IMG/VR virus record: IMGVR_UViG_3300020578_000252
Location: 1-33,508 of that record
From: a virus
Strand: one strand, 5' to 3'
DNA length: 33,508 nt
Shown here: piece after piece, positions 1 to 30,800 of the stretch
How positions within the stretch are numbered: position 1 is the stretch's first letter
Layout: each line of letters opens with the position of its first letter
Notes under the pieces: generated by a model
What the model was told of the DNA's origin: nothing
Database searches by the model: none
Seen by the model: only the letters and a program-made list of their open reading frames with translations
Translations under genes and position numbers: made by a program

Positions 1-417
1 AGAATCAAACTCAAACCTCAAAACTATGCCAGTGTAAACGAAACAAACAAGATTGCTTACGAAGAACAAAGAGTACTGGAAAATATCAGCGTACCCGACG
101 GCGACGATACAGCAAAGCTGGAAGCTTATAAAAAACATCTGGACCGTTTGATTAAACTAAACGCCAAGTTGCTGGTAGACAACACCGAATATATTGAAAT
201 CACCAACACAGGCACAGTGGTTTCAGAACCAGAATATATTGAAGAATTTTATTTCAATTGCGATAGTGAAATTTGTAAAACTATCAGAGAGAAAATGGAA
301 CAGATCAATAAAGAAGGCGCAGTCAAACCTCTAGTAGGATCTTGTAACAGTTGTACCAAAGAATATGATATTGCATTGACTTTTGATTACTCAAGTTTTT
401 TCGGCAAAAGCTCTTAA
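1..417 (+). CDS. gp26-like baseplate hub protein, 5'-truncated by the window
   Basis: The frame is open from base 1 with no start inside the window, so only the last 138 residues are visible; a TTG at 148 is an internal leucine. The end carries a pattern I associate with T4-type gp26 baseplate proteins: paired cysteines (NCDSEIC, then CNSC about 30 residues later, a possible zinc site) and a closing FDYSSFFG motif. The family takes part in assembly of the central hub of the myovirus baseplate. The gene stops with TAA at 415-417, but a slippery heptamer at 396-402 lies just before the stop. Some ribosomes probably shift -1 there and continue into the next frame to 632. The family assignment is from memory of the motif and was not searched. 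Confidence 0.7.
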   Translation, partial: RIKLKPQNYASVNETNKIAYEEQRVLENISVPDGDDTAKLEAYKKHLDRLIKLNAKLLVDNTEYIEITNTGTVVSEPEYIEEFYFNCDSEICKTIREKMEQINKEGAVKPLVGSCNSCTKEYDIALTFDYSSFFGKSS

Positions 418-632
418 CAAAAAACGCCGAAGAAATACTAGGCTTAGTTAAGAGCTACGAAAATCAAATCAAGCAGATCAAAGACGAACTATTGAGATTT
501 TGTTGGTACATGCGCGGCGGTATATCTTATTCCGACGCCATGATGTTGAGCGCAGAAGATAGAAAAATCATCAACGAGATTATCAAAGACAATTTAGAGA
601 CCGCCAAAAAAAGCGGGATGCCATTCTTCTAA
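387..632 (+). CDS. gp51-like baseplate hub assembly protein, reached by -1 frameshift
   Basis: This frame is open from 387 (after a TGA at 384-386) to TAA at 630-632. It reads as a compact conserved protein: LLTKNAEEILG, then FCWYMRGGISYSDAMM, ending KSGMPFF. I recognise this as the short hub-assembly protein that follows gp26-like genes in marine T4-like phages, usually labelled gp51; the label is from memory. There is no ATG, GTG or TTG before the conserved part. The first candidates are TTG at 492 and ATG at 510, which would delete the N-terminal half, and neither has a Shine-Dalgarno sequence. The simplest reading is a fusion to the upstream gene by a -1 shift at 396-402, adding about 76 residues after the slip. 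Independent translation from a non-standard start remains possible. Confidence 0.7.
   Translation, partial: LLKFFRQKLLTKNAEEILGLVKSYENQIKQIKDELLRFCWYMRGGISYSDAMMLSAEDRKIINEIIKDNLETAKKSGMPFF
396..456 (+). promoter_or_regulatory. Programmed -1 ribosomal frameshift signal (slippery site plus stem)
   Basis: In the gp26-like frame the bases at 396-402 read T TTT TTC, a canonical X XXY YYZ heptamer. After a 6-nt spacer (403-408), AGCTCTTAAC at 409-418 is the exact reverse complement of GTTAAGAGCT at 447-456, giving a 10-bp stem with a 28-nt loop. A second, mutually compatible pairing, TTCGGC (400-405) with GCCGAA (426-431), would make a pseudoknot, although its 5' arm overlaps the slippery site. 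The zero-frame stop lies in the 5' arm of the main stem (415-417). Heptamer, spacing and stem match known -1 frameshift sites; function is inferred. Confidence 0.78.
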
Positions 633-684: not shown

Positions 685-1042
685 AGAGATTTCATCCAGA
701 TTAATTGGTCACTCTTTGCCCAGGGCGGGCAAAAAATATATACGCTTCATCCGAGTAGCATAGTCACTGATATTAGAGCATTACAGAGGCGGTTGTCCTG
801 TACCTCGAGCTCCGTCTTTATACAACGGCGGTTTACAAAATGTATATCAGCACATCTCATAAACGTGTACGATCGCTCGTACGTCTTTTCAGCCTTTATG
901 AATCCTGTTCAAACAACTAAATCGCGGCATTTGCGATCTTCATCCCGAAGGGTAGTAGTTGAGTGCTTGTTGCAGCGACAAGACTTCCATCCCTGTGATC
1001 ATGGATCCAGGTATAGGGCACACGTGATTGGCCTGTGCTAGC
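633..1042. other. Gene-free convergent intergenic region, hairpin-rich
   Basis: About 410 bases lie between the rightward hub genes and the leftward GIY-YIG gene. A 129-codon frame on the plus strand has a composition unlike the neighbouring proteins, no Shine-Dalgarno sequence and no recognisable motif, so I do not call it a gene. Short stems recur along it: TTTGCCC (715-721) with GGGCAAA (727-733); GTACGA (867-872) with TCGTAC (877-882), followed by GTCTTTT; ATCGC (921-925) with GCGAT (933-937); CTTGT (966-970) with ACAAG (978-982); GCACA (1018-1022) with TGTGC (1034-1038). It looks more GC-rich than the flanks. I found no tRNA T-arm. It could hold a structured RNA, terminators for both strands, or decayed sequence. 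Confidence 0.5.
776..828 (+). ncRNA. Candidate compact RNA fold within the intergenic region
   Basis: GAGC (776-779) can pair with GCTC (809-812), enclosing GAGG (786-789) with CCTC (803-806). CCGT (812-815) pairs with ACGG (825-828), sharing base 812 with the first helix. The loop bases GTTGT (792-796) complement ACAAC (822-826), which would make a pseudoknot. These helices are short and the strand is not determined. No promoter was identified. Offered only as a candidate for covariation testing. Confidence 0.2.
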
Positions 1043-1483
1043 CTAACTGCTTAACTTGTTTTTGATATGGGAGCCATGGATACGGCAATTTATTATGCCG
1101 TTGTAGTAATCATCTGATTCTAAGACTTGGTGTCTAAATTGTTCGCGTGCCTCAACATACGAGCACTCTGCTCGTGAATTACAATAAAAAAGTATTTCTC
1201 GTTTAAAATTTTCTGGGCCTAATAATTCTACGTCTTTTTTAAGTTCGTCATTGGAGCCATAATATTCTTGCCAGTCTGAGTCTATTTTGCTTCTAATTTT
1301 CTTTTTCTTTTTATTACCATTTTTTAATTTTACTGTTCGTACTGTGGTTTTTGAAAATTTAGCTAGTTTCTTACCAATGTATTTGCGTCCAGATACGGTA
1401 TTTGTAATCATATACACGAATCCAACGCAATCTTCCGGAAGCACATCAACCGTTTTGTTTTCAAATAGCCACACCATGTACAC
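1043..1483 (-). CDS. Free-standing GIY-YIG family endonuclease
   Basis: The 146-residue protein carries the GIY-YIG nuclease core: GFVYMI at about residues 21-26 (GIY element), KYIGKK at about 34-39 (YIG element), EYYGSND after a basic lysine-rich stretch, and a glutamate in YVEAREQF near residue 113 that fits the metal-binding catalytic position. The asparagine-bearing YYNGIINC segment follows. Such proteins are often mobile homing nucleases in T4-like phages, but this length and motif set are also common as fixed single-domain genes. The start used is GTG at 1483, with ATG at 1477 as an alternative. An AGGA lies near the stop of the upstream radical SAM gene, farther from the start than usual. 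It is the last gene of the leftward block. DNA target unknown. Confidence 0.75.
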   Translation of the reverse strand: MYMVWLFENKTVDVLPEDCVGFVYMITNTVSGRKYIGKKLAKFSKTTVRTVKLKNGNKKKKKIRSKIDSDWQEYYGSNDELKKDVELLGPENFKREILFYCNSRAECSYVEAREQFRHQVLESDDYYNGIINCRIHGSHIKNKLSS

Positions 1484-2370: not shown

Positions 2371-4123
2371 CTGTGTTATAACTTGTAAATCCGTTTTCTT
2401 TGATAACATTGAGCACGTTGTTAACACGACCAGCCAGTTCGTCTTTATGGCTAACTAGCCATACACTACGATTACCTTCTCTACTCATTTTCTTAAGGAT
2501 AGCCAAACTGTTTTCTACACCCGAACTGTCCATGCCAGTATCAATAACTTCATCAATGAACAGCAGATTAATAGGTTGATATAAACTTTCCCATACATCT
2601 CTAAATGCCCAACTTAGACTTAGAATTAATCTATTGCGTTCTCCTCTACTGAGATTGTCAAAATCAAGTTCACGTCCTAGTTCCTCAATACTTACAGTTA
2701 GATCGTTTTGAAACTTAACAGTATGCGGTAGTCCAATGCGATCTAGATACTGACTTAGTCTAGCATTTAGATAACTTAAATTTTGGTCAATAATACGTTT
2801 ACGAATAAAACTGTCTTTGTTAGTTAATAGTTTTAACAAGAATTCTTGATGTTCTCGAACATTAGCAAGTTCGTTGATCAAATCATAATTAATTTCTTCT
2901 AACGCCTGTGTTTCCATTTCGCGAATTTGTTCTTCGTATGGATCTGCTTCGGCTTGTTTTGTTGTTAACTGTTGCTTTAGGTTGGCTACAGTATTTCTAT
3001 GATTAATAGCGTCTTCTTTACGATCGTAAAATACTGTAGGAACAGGACCTAAATTACCTATTAATGCCAACGCATCCACATGAGACATTAACTGTTTATC
3101 GTTGGACAAATACTGTAGTGAAGTTTCTTTTAGCGTGTTTCGTTTTTCTTTTGATACCTGTTCGTGCTTGCTATCATGGATCGCCTGTCCGCAAGCATAG
3201 CATTCGTGTTTTTCTAAAGTTTCTATTTCTCGTTTGAGTTTATCTAACGTCTTTAATATTCTAACTTGATCAGTTTCACAGGCAACTTTCCATCGATTAA
3301 TTTCTGCAGCCTTTTTAGTTTTTTCATTATAAGCATCTAATGCGTCATGATTAGCCAGCTCTATCTCAATGTTTAAATCGCCTACAACACTTAATGCACG
3401 TTCAAGATCGGTGATTTCATTTAGTCTTTTAGTATTCCATAGTGTTTGTCTACGGCGAGTAGCTTCAATTTGTTCTTGTATGCGGGTGTTGGCATCCGTT
3501 ACTGCTTTAATACGATATTCCTCAACAGTAATGGCATCTCGGGTTGCTTTAACTTGTTCTTTGAGTGCATCTGCTTTTTCAGATAATACTGTAATACCTA
3601 GCAATTGTTCAATAATAATACGTTGATCGTTGGCTTTTAATGCCAAGAATGGTTCTGTATAGGTGTTTAATGCAACGATATGTTTGAACATATCATGACT
3701 CATCCCAAGCATGCGTTCTATGTAGGCCTGCGTCTCTCTACTGTCTCCTTGACTTTCATCTGTAATCTGTTGTTCTTCGCCTCCAACGTAAAATGCCATT
3801 GTATTTGGACGGCGTCCTCGTTCAATTTTGTAGTCGATGCCGTCTTTTTCGAAATCAATCGTGACCAACATATTCTTACTATTTGTTTTGTTGATAAGAT
3901 TATCTTTTTTAATGTTAGTAAGAGCCGATCCATATAGTGCATAAGATAAAGCATTGATGATTGTAGTTTTACCAGTACCATTTCTGGCCCCTGTGTCATC
4001 GCCACCTAGATCTAAATTTTGTCCTAGTACTAGGGTTAGATCTTTACGATCAAATTGAACTGCTTGTGTAGCATTGCCTACACTCAGAAAGTTTTTTACT
4101 GATAGGTTTTTTATTTTAAACAT
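2354..4123 (-). CDS. 46: gp46-like recombination nuclease ATPase subunit (SbcC/Rad50 family)
   Basis: This 589-residue protein is the ATPase partner of gp47 in the phage Mre11/Rad50-type complex that resects DNA ends for recombination-dependent replication. Walker A is GARNGTGKTT (residues 45-54). Long coiled-coil segments flank a zinc hook, HECYACGQ, near residue 307. The ABC signature LSRGERNRL is near 489, Walker B NLLFIDEVID near 522, and the switch histidine sits in LVSHKDE. T4 gp46 is about 560 aa, so the length is normal. The ATG at 4123 starts MFKIKNLSVKNF, typical of the family. No Shine-Dalgarno sequence is obvious. In T4 gp46 and gp47 are neighbours; here a sulfotransferase-like gene separates them. 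Its end overlaps the radical SAM start by 17 nt. Confidence 0.95.
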   Translation of the reverse strand: MFKIKNLSVKNFLSVGNATQAVQFDRKDLTLVLGQNLDLGGDDTGARNGTGKTTIINALSYALYGSALTNIKKDNLINKTNSKNMLVTIDFEKDGIDYKIERGRRPNTMAFYVGGEEQQITDESQGDSRETQAYIERMLGMSHDMFKHIVALNTYTEPFLALKANDQRIIIEQLLGITVLSEKADALKEQVKATRDAITVEEYRIKAVTDANTRIQEQIEATRRRQTLWNTKRLNEITDLERALSVVGDLNIEIELANHDALDAYNEKTKKAAEINRWKVACETDQVRILKTLDKLKREIETLEKHECYACGQAIHDSKHEQVSKEKRNTLKETSLQYLSNDKQLMSHVDALALIGNLGPVPTVFYDRKEDAINHRNTVANLKQQLTTKQAEADPYEEQIREMETQALEEINYDLINELANVREHQEFLLKLLTNKDSFIRKRIIDQNLSYLNARLSQYLDRIGLPHTVKFQNDLTVSIEELGRELDFDNLSRGERNRLILSLSWAFRDVWESLYQPINLLFIDEVIDTGMDSSGVENSLAILKKMSREGNRSVWLVSHKDELAGRVNNVLNVIKENGFTSYNTDVDIT

Positions 4124-4132
4124 TAATTTTGT

Positions 4133-4157
4133 ATATTATCATTTAAATTCATAATAT
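4133..4157 (-). promoter_or_regulatory. AT-rich hairpin in the gp46 leader
   Basis: ATATTAT (4133-4139) and ATAATAT (4151-4157) are perfect 7-base inverted arms with an 11-base loop, about 10 nt upstream of the gp46 start codon. It lies in the 51-bp gap between the sulfotransferase-like gene and gp46. It could end transcription weakly, stabilise a processed 5' end, or affect gp46 initiation. In such AT-rich DNA it may also be chance. Confidence 0.25.
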
Positions 4158-4174
4158 CGTCTTTTATAATAACT

Positions 4175-5062
4175 TTATTTTCTTAATTTTGCAATAGCCT
4201 TAGTTAGTTCATAAGTGTCTTTAAACCAATTTTTAAAATCCCATACTGGAATTTTTATATTAAATTTTGTTTCTATCCAGTAATTTAAATATCCTTGATC
4301 ATGTAAATCATCAATATAAGTTAAATCAATATTTTTGTTGTTTTTAATTGCTGCTTCTAATAATTTACAATCATAATAAATTTGGAAATAACAAGAATTT
4401 TTATTTTTCCAATCTTCTAAAAATATTTTTAATTTGCTTTCATTAATGATGTTCATCTTTAATTCATTAATTAATGTAATTACAGTATTCAACGGATTAT
4501 TAATTAAAGATTCTAGTTCCAAATTTATATATGAATGATTAGTTTCCCATTTAAATGGCCAATTATGATAGAATAAGGTAAAATTTTCTCTAATAGCATA
4601 TGGTTCGTTGGCATCTTTTGCCCATCCTTCAATTAAATGATTTTTTGTCTCAGATATAAGGTCAGATTGCATGGCTTTGACAACACAGGTTTTATAAACC
4701 ACAGGACGAATTGGAGGAGTTAACGCTATTCTTATAATGGTAGCATTTGGAAAATTTTTTTTTAATTTAGTATAAGAATCATTTTTTATACCATTATCAC
4801 ATAAAACTAAAATTTTTTTATTTGTTATGTTGGAATTTATATTCAAATATGGAATGTAATTTTCAGGATCGTTAAAATAAATTTCTGTATATTTGTTAGT
4901 TTTATGACTATTACCGTTTATGTTAAAATCAAAATCATCGTTACTAACTTTAATCGTTAAATCTGCAAATTCACTTAAGATATAGTAAATGAAATTACCA
5001 AATCCACCAGATGGATATGTAATTACAATGAGGTCCTTGCTTAATGTATTAAATAACCTCAT
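4175..5062 (-). CDS. Sulfotransferase-like P-loop protein (accessory)
   Basis: The 295-residue protein begins with LIVITYPSGGFGNFIYYIL at about residues 10-28. This combines a beta strand with a glycine-rich loop and resembles the 5'-phosphosulfate-binding loop of sulfotransferases. Similar proteins occur in marine phages as cargo genes. A later segment, TIIRIALTPPIRPVVYK, could supply the 3'-phosphate-binding arginine, and INLELESLI follows before an aromatic-rich C-terminus. If it is a sulfotransferase it would move sulfate from PAPS to a glycan or protein; the acceptor is unknown, and a glycosyltransferase or other P-loop fold is possible. The ATG at 5062 overlaps the gp47 stop as ATGA, so translation is coupled to gp47. 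The coding sequence is visibly more AT-rich than gp46 and gp47 on either side, suggesting a separate origin. Confidence 0.5.
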   Translation of the reverse strand: MRLFNTLSKDLIVITYPSGGFGNFIYYILSEFADLTIKVSNDDFDFNINGNSHKTNKYTEIYFNDPENYIPYLNINSNITNKKILVLCDNGIKNDSYTKLKKNFPNATIIRIALTPPIRPVVYKTCVVKAMQSDLISETKNHLIEGWAKDANEPYAIRENFTLFYHNWPFKWETNHSYINLELESLINNPLNTVITLINELKMNIINESKLKIFLEDWKNKNSCYFQIYYDCKLLEAAIKNNKNIDLTYIDDLHDQGYLNYWIETKFNIKIPVWDFKNWFKDTYELTKAIAKLRK

Positions 5063-6078
5063 AGATTTCTATAAATATCCAAAAGTAAATTTTTATTATA
5101 CTGTTCACTTTGAATATTTGTTAATTGATTGGTTACTATAGTATCTACACTTTCAAACATTATGTTTCCTGTAATATCGTAATTGATATCTTCACTCACA
5201 GTCTTTTGCGGTATTAGAGTTATCTCTCTGAGATTGTAAGTGTTAACAAACGTTTCCTTGATAAACGTTGCTTCTTCGTAGCTGATATCTACGTCAAGAT
5301 TCACACGCACATGCATGCCAGGGCTCAATAACTTTTCTGTGTTTGTAAGAACATCACTTAATTGATACACACGATATCTGGGTTGATCTGGCCAAGCATG
5401 ATACTCCGGCTCCGCACCCCATGCAAGCACCATCATACCACGTTCGTCGTCGTGGTTATCTGCATAGTTGTGCGGGAAGCAATTTCCAATGTAAGTAATG
5501 TTTTTTTGTGTTTGTCTCTTGTGAAAGTGGCCGGTAAACACATGCTCAATACCTGTGAAGTCTTCTCGTTTGACATCACCATGGTCAGGCATCTGCACCA
5601 TGGCATTCATATAGAATGTTGGCAGTTCAAAATGCCCAAACATGTATTTGGCTGATAATTTTGGTATGCGTTTGTAATCGTCGCCCACTAACCAAGGGGC
5701 CACAATAACATCACCATCGTGTAACCAATCATTACAAATGACCACATTCGGTAAATGTCGAGCCCACTCAACGCTTTGAACATCCCTTTTGTCCCTATAA
5801 TATAAGTCGTGATTGCCAGGAATGAAATACACACGATCGAAGTTGTCGTTGAGATGTTCCAAAGCACGGAGACTATAGTTAAGAGTGACAATATTGATAC
5901 TAGCACGATTGTTATGCCAATCTCCAAGAAAAAACGCTGTTTCACACCCTTCCTCCCGTGCTTTTGCTGTAAACCATTTTATAAAGTTTAAACAATCTTC
6001 ATTATGTGTTTGACTGTTACTCTTTAATCCAAAATGTATATCTGTGCAGACTGCTGCTTTGCGAAATAAATTACTCAT
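5059..6078 (-). CDS. 47: gp47-like recombination nuclease subunit (SbcD/Mre11 family)
   Basis: This 339-residue metallophosphoesterase is the nuclease subunit that works with gp46. The two-metal site is complete: DIHFG near residue 13, GDWHNN near 52, GNHD near 93, GHFE near 149 and TGHFHKR near 182. T4 gp47 is also 339 aa, so length and architecture match. The ATG at 6078 gives the usual short strand (KAAVCTDIHFG) right after the start. There is no Shine-Dalgarno sequence, but a good sigma70-type promoter lies just upstream, spaced so that the transcript would begin at or very near the start codon. The stop overlaps the next gene's start as ATGA. Confidence 0.95.
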   Translation of the reverse strand: MSNLFRKAAVCTDIHFGLKSNSQTHNEDCLNFIKWFTAKAREEGCETAFFLGDWHNNRASINIVTLNYSLRALEHLNDNFDRVYFIPGNHDLYYRDKRDVQSVEWARHLPNVVICNDWLHDGDVIVAPWLVGDDYKRIPKLSAKYMFGHFELPTFYMNAMVQMPDHGDVKREDFTGIEHVFTGHFHKRQTQKNITYIGNCFPHNYADNHDDERGMMVLAWGAEPEYHAWPDQPRYRVYQLSDVLTNTEKLLSPGMHVRVNLDVDISYEEATFIKETFVNTYNLREITLIPQKTVSEDINYDITGNIMFESVDTIVTNQLTNIQSEQYNKNLLLDIYRNL

Positions 6079-18100: not shown

Positions 18101-18727
18101 GCTCCTTTGATAGATGAATTGAAAACAGAATTTGGTTCAATTGAACAATACAAGACTATCAGTGACAGTATAATTTACAATCCGGCAGTGTTTAAACCGT
18201 TGTTTGGTAACAAGGCTGATGCTGCATTAAGGGCCACATTCAAAGTAATTAAAAATCCAAATGTCAGTATCAGCGACAACGAAGTTAAGAGCCAAGTTAT
18301 CTCGGCCATTAACACATACTTCGACATTAACAATTGGGATTTTGGGGAAACATTCTATTTCAGTGAATTGAGCGCATATTTACATACAACCTTGGTTCCC
18401 AACGTGAGCAGTATTGTAATTGTGCCTGCAAACTCTGGAAGCCAATTTGGCGCATTATATCAAATCAATGCAGACCCTGATGAAATTTTAGTAAGCGCAG
18501 CAACAGTAGATAACGTACAAATTATTTCTGCTATTACAGCAGCACAACTTAATATAGCATCAGGTGGTGGCGGTGGATCAGGTGGTGGCGGTGGATCAGG
18601 TGGTGGCGGTGGATCAGGTGGTGGCGGTGGATCATCTGGTGGTGGATCGTCTGGTGGCGGTGGATCATCTGGTGGTGGATCGTCTGGTGGTGGATCAGGT
18701 GGTGGCGGTGGTGGAGGATATTATTAA
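15110..18727 (+). CDS. 6: gp6-like baseplate wedge protein with (Gly5Ser)n tail
   Basis: The 1205-residue protein starts with the gp6 signature: LLVQQDWTKIYQTFREADFQ, YLRTYYPEDFNDFTESSEY, and FLGQSLAFRADLNARENFID. A Baseplate_J-type core follows (SREDLE-like SRESLEDIRTKAPQQYYTQN, MVTGEDYNVLPYTTF). In T4 gp6 dimers form the inner ring of the baseplate. It is about twice T4's 660 aa. Additions include a beta-rich insert at about residues 535-588, shared with the 362-aa protein. A C-terminal domain contains FKVIKNPNVSISDNEVKSQV and FYFSELSAYLHTTLVPNV. The last ~55 residues are almost only Gly and Ser, ending in two Tyr. The Gly/Ser DNA also supplies the ribosome site of the next small gene. Confidence 0.9.
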   Translation: MAITTRQTNLLVQQDWTKIYQTFREADFQSFDYETLRKSMIEYLRTYYPEDFNDFTESSEYIALIDLIAFLGQSLAFRADLNARENFIDTAERRDSILKLARLVSYNPKRSTPATGFLKFDSVSTSETIFDSTGINLSNIVVNWNDATNDNWLEQFTAILNASLVATQAVGKPGATKSLSGVKTDEYTVDIINGITPTYPYTASIAGVTYPFEIVSATSNGQNYIYESTPNPGGAFNFVYRNDNQGNASNNTGYFFYFKQGELQSLDFAITESLPNRVVNINFDNINNTDVWLYAVTSSGTLSEVWTQVPAVNGINVIYNNTEDRNLYSVASRANDQIDLVFGDGSFTNIPVGNFRIYYRVSNNLTYKVTPDEMSGITINIPYVGRTGRAETLTVRASLQYTVTSAISRESLEDIRTKAPQQYYTQNRMVTGEDYNVLPYTTFNNILKLKAVNRTSSGISRYLDVIDATGKYSSTNIFAQDGIIYKEDYSETENFQFTSSIEVNAIARNTLKPLISSITTRHLYYNTATRNSPQGATITATSMVAGTVYKIISVGSTTFTNFGASENTVGTIFTATAAGTGNGTVATVATWTQLTNSNSRSTGTFNSPSYTFLVQGSLVKFVAPAGKYFDAQNQLQTGTPTTEYQRTTIWASIIEYDNPGLSATATLSIVVPTGAIIGEIIPVFANDWSETLINNIILQILSYKTFGLRYDIPSMSWQIVESQNLGSGTFSLTNAGSTSGTGLDNSWFLSLSFVNGEYTTVSRGLHYFFESQRETRFYFDPDVRVYDSRTATTLVDSIKVLRTNTQPDSSDALFYSQTYRIWSRAVGTDGIDDNRKIKITFPDDNLDEVPDDPDLFVDLVDPAVNAENKYVYFVETVNQYNFLQYDPVDQTEIVSAYQTEEDILTNISLYASGTIFYATNEDIFYESQGATIAAITNYVARFGRQYIQFQYKHNAPNSRRIDPSPNNLIDFYILTKTYSTDYFSYITDTSGRIQEPVAPLIDELKTEFGSIEQYKTISDSIIYNPAVFKPLFGNKADAALRATFKVIKNPNVSISDNEVKSQVISAINTYFDINNWDFGETFYFSELSAYLHTTLVPNVSSIVIVPANSGSQFGALYQINADPDEILVSAATVDNVQIISAITAAQLNIASGGGGGSGGGGGSGGGGGSGGGGGSSGGGSSGGGGSSGGGSSGGGSGGGGGGGYY
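18563..18718 (+). repeat. Tandem 18-bp Gly-Ser coding repeat at the 3' end of gp6
   Basis: Four perfect head-to-tail copies of GGTGGTGGCGGTGGATCA run from 18563 to 18634, each coding Gly5-Ser. Imperfect 12-18 bp derivatives (Gly3-Ser-Ser, Gly4-Ser-Ser, Gly3-Ser, Gly7) continue to 18718. The codon bias is uniform, suggesting recent slippage expansion. The antisense strand gives a meaningless His/Leu-repeat frame. Confidence 0.92.
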
Positions 18728-18839: not shown

Positions 18840-21800
18840 ATGGCAGCTTTTAAGACTTTACAATTTTTACCTGAAATTTTTAGAACCGATACCAATAGAA
18901 AATTTCTAAACGCCACAGTTGACCAATTGGTAAGTGAACCAAACTTAACCAAAGTCAATGGTTATATTGGCAGAAAATTGGCACCTTCGTACAAAACCAC
19001 CGACAGTTATATCACTGAACCCACAAAGGCCAGACAGGACTATCAACTTGAGCCTAGTATTATAATCAAAGATCCTGCCACAAACAAATTAACTTTTGCT
19101 ACTACTTACAACGACATTGTAAACAAAATTAATTTTTACGGCGGATTTGGTAGCAATCAAAATAGATTATTTGATAACGAATACTATTCGTATGATCCGC
19201 AAATTGATCTTGACAAATTTGTTAATTTTGCACAATATTATTGGTTAGAAAACGGTCCCGGAGCAGTCACAATTACTGCTACCACAGTACCTTTAGAGCA
19301 GACATTCACTATCTCTTTTGATATTACAACGCAAACTTACAGATTTAGCGGATACAACAATATACCTAATCCTGTGATAACGCTAGCAAGAGGTGGAAGA
19401 TATACCTTTGTTAGTAACGAACCCGGCAATAAATTTTATATTCAAACCGCACCTGGTTCTTTGGGGGTTGATCCCAGTGTGCCCAATTTATCTACTAGAA
19501 CAGTACTGGGAGTCAGCGGCAACGGCCAAGACGTTGGCGACACAGTTTTTCAAGTACCAGTAGAATCTGCACAAGTGCAATGGTCAAGTATGCCCATTGT
19601 TGATAATGTAAACTTTGCCACTAATTTGAGTTATCAATCATTGCAAGGCTGTTTGGTAACAGAATTAGAAACAGTGCTAGGCGGCCTAGACGGACCAACG
19701 TCAAGTCTTGAGGATGTTTCGATTATATTTGTTAATAATGGTTACATTGACGATATCTATTGGCATAACACAGCAAGAGTGGTTGGCAACACAATTTATC
19801 TAGATCAAGATGTATTAGTGCCGTTCGACGAACGAAACAACATTTATCAAATCAATGTTAAACCTGATGTTGACGGAAATCCTCGAGTTTATCTGACTAA
19901 CAAATTTACAGTATCAAACGAACAAAAAGTCAGAATCATTGCAGGTGCAACCAATGCAGGTAGAGAATTTTATAGTAGGCTAGATATCTATAACGAAGTA
20001 CCAACTATTACCGCACCTTTGAGTTTATTGTATTATCAAAGCGACCAGTCTGACTTGGCCGTAGGCGGAATACAGTTAATTAATCCTGCCGCTGCTGTGA
20101 TTAATCCTGCATTAGAAATAGTAGGACAGAAAAATTATACCAGCCCTGGCGGCATTGTGTTTACTAATGGACTTAAAATAACTTTCGATTCAACCGCAGC
20201 AGAGCCGTATGCAAACAACACATACTATGTCGATGGAGTAGGAACAGCAATAGTGTTGATTTTGGTTAGCAATCTTACATCTCCAGAATTGAACAACGAT
20301 CTATCAACTCCCGATTATTTGACTATCAATCGCGGTGGTGCAGATTTAAACGGATGGACTAGAAGTAATCGATGGTTTCACATTGATGTAATTGAAAAAA
20401 CTGCACAATACAACAATACTGATTTGGTTCTAAACCAGACACTGAGATCTCAGAGACCTATCATTGAATTTAAGCCCAATTTACAACTTTATAATTTTGG
20501 TAGAGAAGGAAAAAATCCAATTGATATCTTGGATGATGTTATTACAAATGCCTACCTACAGGTACAAGGGGTTCTTTGTGAATCAACTACCGAATTAACA
20601 ATCACAGTCGACAGCAACACAGTTACATTAACCAACGGCGACAGAGTTATTTTTAGTCAAGATGATAATCTTGATGTCAGAAATAAGATCTATGATTTTA
20701 GCATTGAATTAATGACGGAAGCTCCTGATCCTTTAGAATACAGAGCGTATATACGTGAATCTGACGACACAACAGTCGACGAAGGACAAACTATTATTGT
20801 AAACTCCGGCGACAATGGACAAAAGCAATGGTATTTTAATGGAAATTCATGGATTCAATCGCAACAAAAAACACAAATTAACCAAGCACCGTTGTTTGAT
20901 ATTATTAATCAAGAAGGTATAAGTTTTGGAGATAATTCTGTTTATCCAGGTACAACATTCATTGGCAGTAAAATATTTTCTTATAAAACAGGATCAGGCA
21001 CCAATGACACAGTATTAGGTTTTCCATTAAGCTATAAAAATTTAATTACTCAGGGTGATATACAATTTGAAAATAACATTGATTTAAACAGCTTTACTTA
21101 TATTATAAGTGCAGGCGTCACTGATACGGTACTAATAAATTCAGGTTTTATACAGAAAAATTTATCAAGAACCACCAGTGCTAGATTAAACACATGGGTT
21201 ATTAATTCTAATTTTAGCAAGCAATATCAAGTTTTTAATTTTACATACGACGGAGCAACAAATTTATTTCCTGTAGATATTCTACCTGACATCAGCGTTG
21301 AGATTCCCAATATCAAAGTTATTATCAATAATATACCAGTTTCGAACGGACAGTTTGGTATTACTAAAGTAGTTGATAAGTTAGCTATTCTAGTAGATTC
21401 AACATTGTTGACTACCGGAGATGTGGTCTTTATTAGCATTTTTAATAGTACAAACACATCATCTCAGGGATTTTATCAAGTTCCTGCGAACTTTGATGTT
21501 AACAGTCTTAATACAGAATTAGAAACGTTAACTTTAGGGCAGATGCGTAATCATCTGATAGTTTATAAAAGTAATAGCCTTGATATTGTTGGAGATGTTC
21601 CTGGTGATAGCAATATCAGAGATCTTGATTTTTTTAATCGAGGTGGAAGCATATTACAACATAGCGCACCTTTAATTTATGCCGGATTATTTCTAAATCA
21701 TCCCGAAATGAATTTTGTAGATGCTGTCAAATTGGCATCTCGCGAATACACACAATTTAAAATTAGATTTTTAGAACTGGCCGCTAATTTAGATCTTGAC

Positions 21801-24800
21801 AGAACTAATATTGCAGAATGTGTAGACATCATAATGTCAAGTTTGAACAGTGTTAAAAATGATAATTTTCCTTGGCACTACAGTGACATGATACCACACA
21901 GAATAGATAACAGGGTAGACTTACCTAGCTATACAGTATTTGATTCTGCTATTAGAGCTTACGAAATAACATCAATATTTCAGGACACTGTGGTAGGTAA
22001 TAAAGCTGTTTTTGTCTATCTAACCAGACAGTTAAACGGTACAAATACTACAACTCTTTTAGTAAAAGGACAAGATTATTATTTTGATCAAACTAGACCT
22101 GCAGTAGTAATTCAAGATACCTTTAATTTGTTATACAATGATATATTAAGCATAATCGAATACAACAACACCGATGGAAGTTATGTGCCCGAGACTCCGA
22201 CCAAGTTAGGGTTGTATCCCAAATACGTTCCAGAGATATTCACCGATAATACTTATAGAACTCCTCGACAAGTGATACAAGGGCATGATGGAAGCTTGAC
22301 ACCAGCATTTGGAGATTTTAGAGACAATATTCTATTAGAATTAGAAAGAAGAATATACAATAATATCAAAGTTGATTATGATCCAGTTAGTTTTAATATC
22401 AACGATTATGTTCCGGGCAAGTGGAGAATATTAGATTATTCTAGACAGGAATTTGACCAACTGTTAAGCCAGAGTTTTTTAAGATGGGCAGGTACCAATA
22501 GAGTAGACTTTACAACCAATAACACGTTTCAAGCATCGGATGCATTTACGTGGAACTATAAAAAATTTAGAGATGTAATCAACGGCGAAAATTTACAAGG
22601 CACCTGGCGTAGCATTTTCAGATATTTCTTTGATACTGATCGTCCACATACGCATCCCTGGGAAATGTTAGGATTCAGTGAAAAACCAGATTACTGGAAT
22701 GACCGTTACGGTCCCGCACCGTACACAGGAGGAAATATTGTACTATGGAGTGATTTGGAGTCAGGTTATATTCATGCAGGAGATCGTGCCGGTATTGATT
22801 TAAGATACAGTAGACCTGGATTGACTTCGGTTATTCCGGTAGACGAGAATGGTAATCTTCGTAGCCCGGCAGAATTTTTAGTCACTGATTTTGATAGCTC
22901 AAATGCAAATACAAGCTTTGCAGTAGGCGACATTGGACCCACTGAACTGGCCTGGCGTAGAAGTAGCGATTTCCCATTTGCTGTACAGTATGCATTGGCT
23001 ATCGGAAAACCAGCCAGATATTTTTCACTACTAGCCGACGTGCAAAAATATAACAGAAATACCATAACTGGACAATTTACTGATACAACAACAAATCAGC
23101 ATTTACAACCAACTGTGCTACGAGTGAACGGTTATGTAGATATAACTGGCACAGTCGAGCGTAGTGCCGGGTATTTAAATTGGATTAGAGATTATATCAA
23201 AAATCTAGGAGTGACCGATGCTGGTACAATTCTAAAAGATAATCTAGCTAGAATATCAGTTCAGTTGGCATATAAAATGGCTGGGTATTCTGATAAAAGA
23301 TTCTTGGAATTACTGGCGGAGCAAGTCAGTCCAAGTAGTATCAATGACAGTGTTGTTATACCTGAAGAGAACTATACTATAGAGTTATATAAGGGTGCTC
23401 CTCTAAACAAAATAACTTATTCGGCTGTTATTGTTGAAAAAACAGTAAATGGGTATACAGTCAGTGGATACAATACAACAAATCCTTATTTTTACATTGT
23501 TCCTAGTTTGCCCAACAACAATGCCTATACCATTGATGTCAGTGGTCAAAGAGGTACAATTTTTAAAGATTTTAAAAATCAAAGACTAACTATTCCGTAC
23601 GGCTTTGAATTCAGCAAAAAACAACAAGTCATTGACTTCCTGGTAAGTTACCAAAGATACCTAATTGCACAAGGTTTTGTTTTTGAAGATAGAGAAAATA
23701 TACTTAACGAAAAGAAAGATTGGATTTTAAGTGCTAAAGAATTCTTACATTGGGCTGCACAAGGATGGAGAATTGGAAATATAATTGTGTTAAGTCCGGT
23801 ATCAACTACATTAAAGGTATTCAATGACCAAGCTATAGTTGACGAAATAACAAATACTGCTAACGGTAGTCGGGTGCTCGACATAAATTTCCAGCCAGTA
23901 AAGAAAAATAATTTTACGATTGTTAGAGATAGTAATTTGTTTACATTTAAATCTCTTAGAGAGCAAACAATAGGATTAGCAGAATTTAATCTGGTTCAAT
24001 ACGAACATTTGTTGCTATTAGATAATACCACTGTGTTTAGAGACGTTGTATATGTACCAGAAACTGGTAATAGACAATATAGATTAAAATTAGTAGGAAC
24101 TAAAACTGGATCCTGGAATGGAAGTTTAGAATTGCCAGGTTATATTTACAGCAGTGACAAAATTGACGAATGGCGTCCTGGTCAAGACTATTTGAAAGGA
24201 TCACTGGTAGTCAATAAAGCAAGATATTACACAGCGTCAGAAAATATATCAGCAGCTGATCAGTTTCAAATCACACTGTGGAAACAGATAGATCAAAGTG
24301 AATTGACCTCGGGAATGGTCAATAATCTAGCCACAAACGCTAAACAAGCAATCACATACTATGACATCAATGATCAACCACTTGACGAAAAAATACAGTT
24401 ATTAAGTAATGGATTGATTGGATTTAGACCACGACAGTATTTTACTAGTCTGGGTATTGATAATGTTACCCAAAGCAAATTTTATCAAGGACTGACAAAA
24501 CAAGGCGGAACAGCAAACGCTATCAATTCGTTGAGAGGCGCACAATTTAAAAATCTCAACACCGAATTAAACTTTTTTGAAAATTGGGCAATCAGAGTCG
24601 GCGAATATGGCGCATTGGATATCAATCAGTTTTACGAATTTATTTTATCAGAATCTGAGTTTGATAATAATCCCGCAGTGTTTCAGCTAACTAACGGAGC
24701 GACTGCTGCACAAACTGATATTTTATCGTTTGCTGAAACTGATGTTTACAAAATCAGTGGTCCTTATACTGCTAATTTTTTAAGAACACAATCTATTACA

Positions 24801-27800
24801 CAACCCAATGAATTTAAACCGTTGCCGGTTGCTGGGTTTGTGAATCTAGATGATGCTGACAGTACAATTTTTGATATAACAGATTATACTCAGTATGCCA
24901 GTATTGTCGATGACATGGCAGTTGGGTATACTGTCTGGACTGCACGCGATTTTGACAAGCAATGGAATATCTATAGAGCCACTGATGTCGCTGGCCTGGC
25001 TTTTATATTGAGATATAATATAGATTCGCAAGCTGAACTTGTGATGAGCGCCGAACACGGACTTGGGGGCGGAGAGCTTATTGCGTTAAAGAATTTTGAC
25101 GAAAGATACAACGGAATTTACCGCGTGGATTTGATTATTGATTCCACTAGATTTTTAATAACCATTTATAATAATTTGCAAGATCTCATTGACGACGAAG
25201 CAGTATTAGGCAATGGTATTGTTTACAAACTTGTAAGTAGTAAATTGTCTACACCTATAGACGTAGTAAATTCAACTCCTAGTAATGGATGGATTGACAA
25301 CGACAAAGTTTGGGTAGAAAATCTCGACAATCAATCCAACTGGGGAGTGTATACAAAAACACAACCGTGGGACTATCAAGATAAAATTGAATTAGGGGAA
25401 AGTCAGTACGCAGGAAACGATCATTTTGGTAAAGCTATTGTAATGGATAACAATGCTTTTTATCTATACAGTGGCGCACCTGACAGTTCCAGCGGTAGAG
25501 TAAGCATTTTTGTCAGAAATATTTATAATGCATGGGATAGTTATGGATTTTTGTGGGGCAATAACCCAGCTTTAGATAGTTTTGGCAAGGTTCTTGCAAC
25601 AGCAACAGTTGGTAGCTCGAACTATCTGATAGTATCTGCCCCGGATTCTGGTACTAAACAAGGTGTAATATATGTTTTCGAAAATCAGACTCTAATGCAA
25701 ATTTTGTCTGACAGTTCCGGCTCGGCTGGAGACGAGTTTGGTGCATCGTTGGCAATGAGTAGCGATGCCAAATACTTGTATGTTGGAGCCCCGGGTGCTA
25801 ACAAAGTCTATTGCTATGCGTTAAATTATCCAAGAGAGCAAACTTCACAAAATATTATAGGATCAACTGGAGTCGACACATTTAATCTAAGTTTTCCGGC
25901 AGCAGATGCCAGCGATATTATTGTCACCTCTCCGTTAAGATCGTCGGAATATTTTCCGGGGATCGATTATACTGTGGCAAGTTCTCCAGATCGGATCATA
26001 TTCACAGTGGCACCACTTAACGGAGAGAGAATAACAATACAAAAGAGAACATATTTTTATAGCTTGTTAGATACTTTACCGTTGGCTTCGGAATCTATTG
26101 CTGGCAGTAGATTCGGCTCTGCAATAGTTTGTAACAATAGCGGGTCAACAATCGCAGTAGGTGCAAGCTCAACCACAGTTGATGGCTTACAAGACGCAGG
26201 TGCTGTTTATGTGTATCATAGAACTGTTACAGAATTTGTAACCAATGGTATTACTAATACGTTTACTTTGCCTGACAACCTGGGTAATATTTTTTACGTT
26301 TATTACAATGGCCTGTTATATATAAATCCCACAAATTATTATGTCATCGGAACCAACATCATTCAGTTCGCAGGATTTGATATACCAGCTGCTGGCAATA
26401 AATTAAAAGTTGAAAGCAATCAATTTATACTAGATCAAACAATCTATCCAGAAACAGTTGGCTTGGCTGGTGGCAGTTTTGGTTCCGGTCTCACAATGTG
26501 TAGTACTGGGTGCAATCTCTACGTGACCAGCCCAACTTATCAAGAATCTAATTACAAATTTGGATTAGCTACTAGATATGTCAATGTGGGCAGAGTATAT
26601 GGTACAGTGACTGGAACAATAGCCAATCCTACTGTCACCATTGGCGAAACTATTATAATCAATGATCGAGTGGTAACTTTTACAGGAACCGGCCTTGCGT
26701 CAGTGATACTTAATATCAATGGTGCCAACATTCCTGGCGTAACAGCGTCAAATGAGAATAACAAATTAAAAATAGATAGTGATGTAGTTGTAGCAGCAAA
26801 CAAGTTGAATATTGTTTCTGGTAATTCTGGGACTCCATTGCAAGATCTTGGAATAGTAGATTATCAGTATGTCCAGGCACTTCGCCATCCGGAATCTCTA
26901 GGTGAAACATTTGGATCAGTGATCAAAGTTGACCAATCTAGCGGAACATTGGCCATTGGCAGCGATGGCGCAGACATTGCAATTTCAGTTGCAATTGATT
27001 CCACATTGGCCATCCCCACAGTGTTTGACAGTGGCGGCACAAAGTTTGTTGATTTGATTACAGACAGCGGCGCTGTTTATGTTTATAATCTCATGAGTAA
27101 TCCTTATGAAGATGTTAACAATCCATCATTGTTTGCGTTTACGCAAAAGTTAACCGGGCCAAGCTTGGATACAGGGTTTAATTTTGGTGCAGCAATTGAA
27201 TTAAAAACAGATTACTTGGTAGTTGGTGTAACCAATGACTATAACATTGTACTCGAAGGCGGCAGCTTGTACTACTTTTACAATCAAGATGCCAAATCTG
27301 GATGGGCATTGACTAGATACAAGGAACCCAGAGTAGACACTGGCGCAGTACACAGTGCCTTCTTGTATAACACTGTTTCTCAAAATATATTAGATTTCTT
27401 TGATTATCTAGATCCAGCAAAAGGAAAATTACTAGGTATAGTAGATCAAGAATTGGATTACAAAGAAGAATACGATCCTGCTAGCTATAATAGAACAAGC
27501 AGAACAGAAACAATCAATAACACAAATTTTTATTGGTCTGACCGTCAGGTAGGACGCACCTGGTGGGATTTGAGCTTGGTCAGTTTTATAGACTACGAGC
27601 AAGATGTCTTGCAGTATAGAGTCAACAATTGGGGAAGTTTGTTCCCCGGAAGCCAGGTAGTAATATACGAATGGATTGAAAGTGATTTCTTGCCTAGTCA
27701 GTATGTGGACTCAGTCGGTGACGGAATCCCTAAATATTCTGATGATACTGCTTATAGTTCAGTAACAGTAGTTGACCCAGCGTCAGGCATAATAAATCAA

Positions 27801-30800
27801 AAGTATTACTATTGGGTATCAGGTAAAACAGGCGTAGATGTCAAACGAGCAGCTCGAACACTGAGCGTAAGATCCTTGGAATTGTATATTACCAATCCCA
27901 AGGATCAGGCGTTGCCTTATCTGGCATTGTTGTCTCCAAATTCTCTAGCAGTTTATAATATCACTAATCAATTGATTGGCGATGATGTTGCAATACATCT
28001 AGACATTGCTGAAGTCAGAAATAGCAATTTGATACACAATGAATGGCAACTGGTGCAGCAAAATGCCGGAGCGGAATCTATACCTCTTAGATTTATCTTA
28101 AAACTCAAAGACAGTATTGCAGGATTTGACGCCAACGGGCTAACAGTTCCAGACCCTTTGCTTAAAGCACAAGATAAGTTAGGAATACTGGATTTACCTA
28201 GACAAACTTTGGTTGCTAATAGAGTAGGTGCATTACAAGAGTATGTAGAAACTCTTAATACAATTTTAGCACAATATCCAATTTTGCTGATTACTACACC
28301 ATCGTCGTTGCTGCTAGAAGATCCAATTCCTGTGTCGGGATTCGATACTCAAACTGCCAGTGTGACAGAATTGAGTTATTTAGATACCAATGCGTTCCCG
28401 GATGGATATAAAGTTTTGATCCCCAGCGACGCTACCTATCAAGGTAAATGGAGCATTTACAGCTTTAATTCAGTTAACGAAACTTTTGAATTATTTAAAC
28501 TACAAAGTTACAAGACTGATTTATTTTGGAGTCCTGTAGAATGGTATGATAGCACATATCAAAACGGTAAAGACGTAAACTATATTATCAACATTTATAG
28601 TGACACACAGGCCCTTACACCGTCTGTTGGCGACTATATCCGTGTACTAGACAACGGCCAGGGAAAATGGGTTCTATACGAAGTGCTGTCAGATGGTACG
28701 TTTAATTTAATTGGTGCCCAAGATGGAACATTTGAAGTCAGTACCGAAGTTTATGATGTAACAGTAGGAGCAGGATACGATAGTGCAGTTTTTGACTCAG
28801 TGGGATTTGACCCTCAAGCAGTGCAAGAATTACAAAACATTTACGATAGTGTATATCAAGAGATACTGATTGGCAATTTGGGTACAGAGTTGAATCGATT
28901 GTTGCTGACTCTGGTAAATTATATCTTTACTGAGCAAAAAAATCCAGACTGGATTTTCAAAACCAGCTTCATTGATGTATATCATAATCTAAGAACTCTG
29001 GAACAGTTTCCAAATTACGTAAAAGACAATCAAAGTTTTTACAACGATTATATAAATGAAGTAAAACCATATAGAACTCAAATCAGAGAATACATACCCA
29101 GCTACTATAAACAAGATTTGGCTAAAGGCGATTGGACTGACTTTGATTTGCCAAGTGCTTATGACGCTAGATACAACACATTTAGAATCCCAGATATTTC
29201 ATTATCTAGTGATGCTGCATTGTTTGATACTGAATTATATTTTGATTGGGCAAATAATTACAAATTAAAAATAACTGATTACATAATTGGAAATGTTGGC
29301 CTAAACTATATACTACCTCCAAACGTCGAAATCACCGGCGGCGGAGGTTCAGGAGCCAGTGCGATTACCACCATAAATGCGAACGGACAAGTAACAGGCA
29401 TCACCGTGATCAGTGCAGGGTCCGGATATACCTCAACACCAAATGTGTTTATAAATGGTGACGGTGTTGGAGCCACTGCATATCCTTTGCTTAAAAATGA
29501 TTTTTATAGCGCACAGGCCAATTTAAGTTACAACTTGGTAAGAAATGTCACAACCACAATTAAATTTGACAGATTTGTTTATTCAAGCAACTTGGTAGTA
29601 TGGCAACCCAACACGGCTTATGCCAATACAGTGATTACTTCAGGGAACGCTCTAGTAGATACAACAAATATTTACATCAGTTCTGGCAACATTGTTGTTT
29701 ACAACAATCAAGCTTATCTTGCTACAAATGCCAATGTAACAACTGAATCAATATTTGATTTCACTAGATTCAGCCAAATTGATAGTGGTAACATTTTATT
29801 AAATGCATTAGATAGAATTGTTGCGTACTATGAGCCTGAAGTGGGAATGCCTGGAAAAACTTTTGCACAGTTGGTTGACGGAGTAGAATATCCAGGAACT
29901 AATATTATTGGACCTGAGTTTAGAACAAATGCATTTGAAATTACCAGTAATATCATTTCGTTTAACTACACTGGTTTGACCATGGATAGCGGCAATGTAG
30001 ATGCAGTGAATTTTCAAACTCTAGGCTTTGAAATTGATCAAAGCATCAGAATTGAATCATTGGTTCCGTTTGATTTCCAAAATAATGGATACTTTAAAAT
30101 TATTAGTGTTGACAGAGATTCAATGACATTGACTGGACAACCGGTAGAAACAACATACAAGCTGCTACTAGATGATCCAATCACTGCTAACACTGGCGAC
30201 TATATTACTCAGGCCAATACCTTGGCTAATGCTTGGGTGCTGCAATCAGTCACTGATTCGCTTTATGTTGACATAATTTATTCTGTGCCAGAGTTTACCG
30301 TATCGTCTAATACGATCAGTATCAACGGTGCAAGCATGTTGGCCAACATTGCTGAAATCAACACAGGCGGCAATGCCAATGTTACTATATCGTATTTAGA
30401 TTTACAAACAGTATTAGATTCAAATATTTACAGCACTTATCTAGATACAGAGCTAGGAACCAGACCACAAGACATCAACATTGTTGGCGGCGCTTATGTT
30501 GATGCCTACGCGAGTCATGCACCTGAAGAATTGATTCCGGGAAGAATGTATGATGCCTTGGAAATGCGTGTGTTTAGTAACACGGTCGGCAATACAGCAA
30601 CATATGGATTCAGAGTGTTCCAGCCAATGAGTGCAAATGTTTTGTATACAAGAATAAGTGCTAATGCAACAACTACACTTTCAGCTAACTTAATTTTAAC
30701 CGACGATGAAATATTAGTCACAAACGCCGGTATATTACCTGAACCAGGCGCTGCATTGGGAAATCCAGGTGTTATTTTTGTCAACGGTGAACGAATTCAT

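Follow-up and report, generated by a model that had tools for sequence, protein, structure and literature searches.

A probable programmed -1 frameshift in a single tail assembly chaperone gene of T4-related jumbo phages

Two overlapping frames and their predicted protein products

A stretch of viral DNA of 33,508 nucleotides (IMG/VR record IMGVR_UViG_3300020578_000252, positions 1 to 33,508; hereafter, the window) begins with two overlapping open reading frames (ORFs) on the plus strand, whose junction carries a candidate signal for programmed -1 frameshifting in what is probably a tail assembly chaperone (TAC) gene. The first frame, the gp26-like ORF1 (1-417, +), would encode the short form (TAC-N); its 5' end is cut at the window edge, and the 3' part that remains closes with the TAA stop codon of the unshifted product at 415-417 (+). 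The second frame, encoding a gp51-type C-terminal extension, lies at -1 (387-632, +), open from 387 to 629 with a stop codon at 630-632, and the two frames share 31 nt. Inside this overlap sits the slippery heptamer T_TTT_TTC (396-402, +), an in-phase X_XXY_YYZ motif of the kind that marks programmed -1 frameshift sites. It reads AGT TTT TTC in the 0 frame, so both Phe tRNAs would be able to re-pair one base back, and coding after the shift would run from 402 to 629 (+), giving 76 amino acids. The first start candidates of the -1 frame, a TTG at 492 and an ATG at 510, both lie far inside its conserved part, which begins at the heptamer. Six bases past the heptamer—within the 5-9 nt expected of a stimulatory structure—an exact 10-bp stem can form between AGCUCUUAAC (409-418, +), which holds the ORF1 stop codon, and GUUAAGAGCU (447-456, +); the segment 403-470 has a folding energy of -15.8 kcal/mol (z = -3.85 against dinucleotide shuffles). 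The window sequence bears out what the original prediction had described here, namely a gp51-like frame that is open across the end of the gp26-like gene and has no start ahead of its conserved region, a heptamer in the correct phase, and the stem itself.

For the truncated fragments of the window, neither Pfam nor PHROG returned a match, and a complete relative was required for protein identification. An identical relative (L001) has a complete ORF1 of 282 amino acids, which matches PF12322 (T4_baseplate) with an E-value of 2e-18 and 67.3 bits (cut-off, 24.5), and its fused form matches phrog_150 (8.2e-21). PF12322 also matches T4 gp26 (9e-64) and T4 gp51 (4e-52). At the profile level, hhalign aligned the fused protein with the gp51 family over most of its length (E about 1e-6), placing the -1 part on the gp51 C-terminus, and with T4 gp26 alone at an E-value of 1.2e-6; the single T4 gp51 sequence matched the fused profile weakly, which the gp51 family alignment resolved. 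Additionally, an AlphaFold model of ORF1 (pLDDT of 82.5) matched T4-like hub assembly proteins in BFVD; a PDB fold search with this model gave no significant match. The PF12322 hits, the profile alignments and the BFVD fold together identify ORF1 as the counterpart of gp26 and the shift product as that of gp51. In T4 itself, the homologs of ORF1 and of the fusion, gp26 and gp51, respectively (PF12322; profile-profile E about 1e-6), are instead separate, divergently oriented full-length genes, and the end of gene 26 (GAG TTC TTT GAG TTA CTA TAA) has no slippery heptamer at the matching place.

Conservation of the junction in jumbo phages and cyanophages

When the fused protein of 210 residues was used to search viral contigs, 52 relatives were found, with identities between 39% and 100%. 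All 52 place the second frame at -1 to the first (the first ORF of L032 being cut by the contig end), and TTTTTTC lies inside the overlap in every case, with the overlap spanning 31 to 97 nt. An in-phase heptamer was likewise found in 18 of 18 named jumbo phages—Atu_ph07, GAP32, CBB, Serratia BF, Kaldavass, Hallingskeid, XbC2, XaC1, 121Q, RaK2, Munch, PA5oct, PAC2, Phosso, Vibrio 2.275.O, SCTP-2, RAS14 and XacN1—followed by a -1 extension of 69-80 residues that is either annotated in their records as a hypothetical gene of its own, beginning at an internal start, or left unannotated. Stenotrophomonas phage RAS14 (L068) and Xanthomonas phage XacN1 (L069) carry T_TTT_TTT in place of T_TTT_TTC, and one or the other motif is present at all 71 junctions. 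These junctions fall into 26 clusters at a 70% amino acid identity threshold. The base preceding the two Phe codons is T in all 26 clusters, even though the codon to which it belongs varies (Ser, Asn, His, Arg, Tyr, Asp or Ala), and the first Phe is invariably encoded by TTT, a codon that accounts for just 139 of the 236 Phe codons elsewhere in these genes. This invariance in the face of codon freedom argues that the heptamer did not arise by chance.

Two further searches of viral contigs were blind to the shift, one using an alignment of 14 jumbo-type ORF1 proteins and the other gp26 of cyanophage S-PM2. The best 80 matches of each were kept—a set that samples the families rather than exhausting them, with some jumbo loci on contigs already present in the first pass. 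One of these 160 loci ran off its contig, and in-phase TTTTTTC was found in all 159 readable ones (79 jumbo-like and 80 cyanophage-like), placed 3 or 6 codons ahead of the ORF1 stop. Where the contig does not cut it, the -1 frame past the heptamer comprises 76-77 residues in the jumbo-like and 59-66 in the cyanophage-like loci. In S-PM2, the annotated gp26 ends in TCT TTT TTC GCA TAA, the annotated gp51 of 57 residues is encoded in the -1 frame, and the heptamer of the junction is followed by a long perfect hairpin. According to an older survey, gp51 of cyanophages and marine vibriophages is missing the initial ~200 residues that other gp51 proteins have (PMC3037559), which would be explained if gp51 is a frameshift extension in these phages.

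The original prediction regarded relatives with a separate ATG and Shine-Dalgarno sequence for the second gene and no conserved heptamer, or a single-base sequencing error in the T-run, as fatal to the proposed shift. No relative without the heptamer turned up among more than 200 related sequences, and since the site is present in all of the related phage sequences examined, the frameshift is almost certainly real. As for a sequencing or assembly error in which one T too few or too many splits an unbroken gene, the site is indeed a homopolymer; the same arrangement recurs, however, in the 52 relatives and in isolate genomes, the -1 relation holds across more than 200 contigs and isolate genomes that are independent of one another, and the ORF1 stop always lies a few codons past the heptamer, leaving such an artefact a negligible probability.

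Past the ORF1 stop, the variable columns among the 27 closest relatives are distributed 26/14/54 over codon positions 1/2/3 of the -1 frame, with a pN/pS of 0.10-0.22 in that frame: the -1 frame evolves as protein. A protein-coding second ORF could, in principle, also be a separate gene with its own non-canonical or internal start, coupled to ORF1 termination. Database records that give GAP32, 121Q, XbC2, BF and others a separate small ORF, with a start that is internal or overlapping, agree with this arrangement, as does an ATG close to the ORF1 stop in Atu_ph07, Phosso, 121Q and S-PM2. We nevertheless regard it as very unlikely. The window offers no start until 492, the -1 frames of PA5oct and PAC2 are entirely free of ATG, GTG and TTG, and the residues FFR..LL, encoded at and just past the heptamer, are kept in most lineages. 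Moreover, an independent start has no need of an invariant in-phase heptamer, and since gp51 of T4 is itself fused at full length, the functional unit in that phage is not a lone C-terminal piece.

A stem at near-fixed spacing past the heptamer

In most jumbo lineages, the strongest helix starts 5-7 nt past the heptamer and closes a loop of 11 to about 75 nt, with arm sequences that differ between lineages; the stem of XacN1, for example, pairs perfectly over 11 bp at the usual spacing of 6 nt. The helix exceeds synonymous-codon shuffles in strength, with a combined P of 7e-9 over the 26 clusters and, in a later set, of 2e-26 for 57 jumbo and 0.004 for 12 cyanophage representatives—combined values that overstate independence, as the representatives are related. 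Covariation was assessed in the largest geometric class, consisting of 38 representatives below 80% identity that were chosen on the three outer base pairs, with the inner seven pairs being scored. Within this class, a long-loop class related to the window, 87% of the cells are paired and 29 are compensatory, as against a permutation mean of 12.5 compensatory cells; none of 2000 permutations reached either observed value, and slid controls gave 31-59% paired cells and 1-8 compensatory ones. With the first T of the heptamer numbered 0, pair 17/76 is T-A in 20 representatives, C-G in 17 and broken in one, and at pair 20/73, 27 have G-C and 8 have A-T. The alignment across relatives that had been proposed as a check of the junction therefore gave an invariant heptamer, a near-fixed spacing and a stem with compensatory changes.

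The original prediction also included a second helix, between 400-405 (+) and 426-431 (+), that would turn the stem into a pseudoknot. This helix does exist in the window, but its conservation fails: it can form in 3 of the 33 unique junctions of the first set and in 3 of the 122 of the larger set, and a conserved pseudoknot was rejected. The conserved element is a simple stem at near-fixed spacing, without a pseudoknot.

These structural features also speak to the possibility that RNA polymerase slips on the T-run and thereby produces a fused mRNA. The six-T run is invariant, and two relatives have seven, as such a mechanism might have it; six T residues are, on the other hand, short for transcriptional slippage in bacteria, and the conserved phase, the short spacer and the compensating stem fit tandem slippage by the ribosome. 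We consider polymerase slippage very unlikely.

A probable single chaperone gene, its known relatives and its neighborhood

On comparative grounds, the locus is very likely a single TAC gene of T4-related jumbo phages, with a short and a long form made by programmed -1 frameshifting. The ORF architecture in all relatives points to this one-locus layout of two isoforms. Most ribosomes would terminate at 415-417 and release the short, gp26-like protein, whereas a minority, paused by the stem six bases downstream, would slip one base back at T_TTT_TTC and produce a long form in which the final 76 residues, past the two Phe codons, come from the -1 frame. The long form would be the counterpart of full-length T4 gp51 and the short form that of T4 gp26, and the outcome would be a fixed, small long-to-short ratio of chaperones, as with G and GT of phage lambda. 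By analogy with lambda, coating of the tape measure protein may fall to the short form and recruitment of the tube protein to the long one, and neither form need be a virion component; in lambda, neither the G nor the GT product is found in the virion (PMC5009743). Both T4 proteins, gp26 and gp51, are counted among the hub assembly chaperones, with gp51 absent from the particle (PMC3004832). Ribosomal shifting in vivo, its efficiency and the chaperone role are what we infer for the genes studied here. The comparative data hence uphold the -1 shift between gp26-like and gp51-like frames put forward in the original prediction, and they revise its view of two fused hub genes in favor of one TAC gene.

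Several observations weigh against this interpretation. The stem is weak or without clear form in Hallingskeid, Munch, BF, L047 and L052, and in such lineages the heptamer may work by itself or together with a different stimulator. The fold match of ORF1 to the HK97 tail assembly chaperone (2ob9, HK97 gp13) is weak (probability of 0.25, TMt of 0.44), and a profile search identified no tape measure gene beside the locus. A long ORF of 690-800 amino acids does lie upstream of the chaperone gene and divergent from it (L001, 207-2528, -; L056, 1106-3502, -; L051, 3-2078, -). It has no significant match in Pfam or PHROG, the RaK2 record describes its copy as resembling a tape measure protein, and the ORF may encode the tape measure protein in these phages. 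In S-PM2, an ORF of 1167 amino acids directly follows gp51.

Frameshifted TAC genes are classic, and their kind is already known: lambda G/GT and P2 E/E' likewise use a programmed -1 frameshift. The genes described here differ from both in belonging to the PF12322 family, with Zn-ribbon-like Cys motifs, in their T_TTT_TTC heptamer, in the conserved stem that follows it and in their occurrence in T4-related phages. Vladimirov, Gautam and Davidson reportedly identified the TAC genes of T4-like phages in 2022, in a study whose title stresses a non-frameshift mechanism, and the assignment of gp26/gp51-type proteins as TACs is said, going by that title and by citing papers, to rest on their work. 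The original prediction did not know of a -1 shift as a standard annotation for T4-like gp26/gp51. The junction is not an isolated case, however, as it recurs in cyanophages and in jumbo phages that infect many hosts. A 2025 paper (PMC12846349), citing Vladimirov et al. 2022, treats poly-T slippery sequences as known in the TAC-N genes of T4-like phages. That paper also deals with the TAC genes of Vandenendeviridae and Andersonviridae, in which a conserved poly-T -1 shift (GTTTTT) similarly lies at the TAC-N end and the second ORF is mis-annotated as a gene of its own; these are other families with another motif, and its passages on them do not describe a covarying stem (PMC12846349). According to PMC10885494, some T4-like phages have a short gene plus a fused long gene, an arrangement for which the 2022 study is cited as well. 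Given the classic frameshifted TACs together with the poly-T signals and fused long genes of T4-like phages, the present locus belongs to a known kind. What seems to be added here is the breadth over jumbo phages and cyanophages, the covariation of the stem and the correction of second-ORF annotations.

A puzzling tiny 'gp51', or a start-poor hypothetical ORF, would become one recoded chaperone gene throughout a large phage group, which gains a collection of frameshift sites with strong comparative backing. The -1 shift is probably ancestral and general in the T4 superfamily, in jumbo phages of many hosts as in cyanophages, the two-gene state of T4 and the other enteric T-even phages being a derived duplication that replaced it, and the annotated 'gp51' of many cyanophages and jumbo phages would then be no gene of its own. 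The T4 layout would also constitute a natural experiment on the reasons for trading a fixed frameshift ratio for two separately regulated genes.

The window and its relatives contain further features of note. Downstream of the chaperone gene, the window matches the Rfam family RF01718, Polynucleobacter-1 RNA, at 911-1043 (-), with 117.5 bits and an E-value of 1.7e-26. Of the 17 related phage contigs scanned, 12 carry this RNA downstream of the chaperone gene, at the same place in L001, L003, L005, L007, L009, L016, L022, L026, L028 and L042 and nearby in L049 and L051. It takes its name from a bacterium and appears to be an RNA that this group of jumbo phages conserves. A small conserved ORF resembling GIY-YIG nucleases (GFVYxITN...YIGKKLAKFSKTT; window 1043-1483, -) adjoins the RNA in several relatives, with copies at 4039-4476 (-) in L026, 4846-5289 (-) in L022, 4653-5096 (-) in L051 and 4654-5091 (-) in L049. 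Finally, the tail/baseplate region of the window includes a single ORF of 4518 amino acids (18840-32396, +) with repeated motifs near its C-terminus, and a gp6-like ORF ends, at 18564-18727 (+), in a long glycine/serine tract with GGGGGSGGG repeats.
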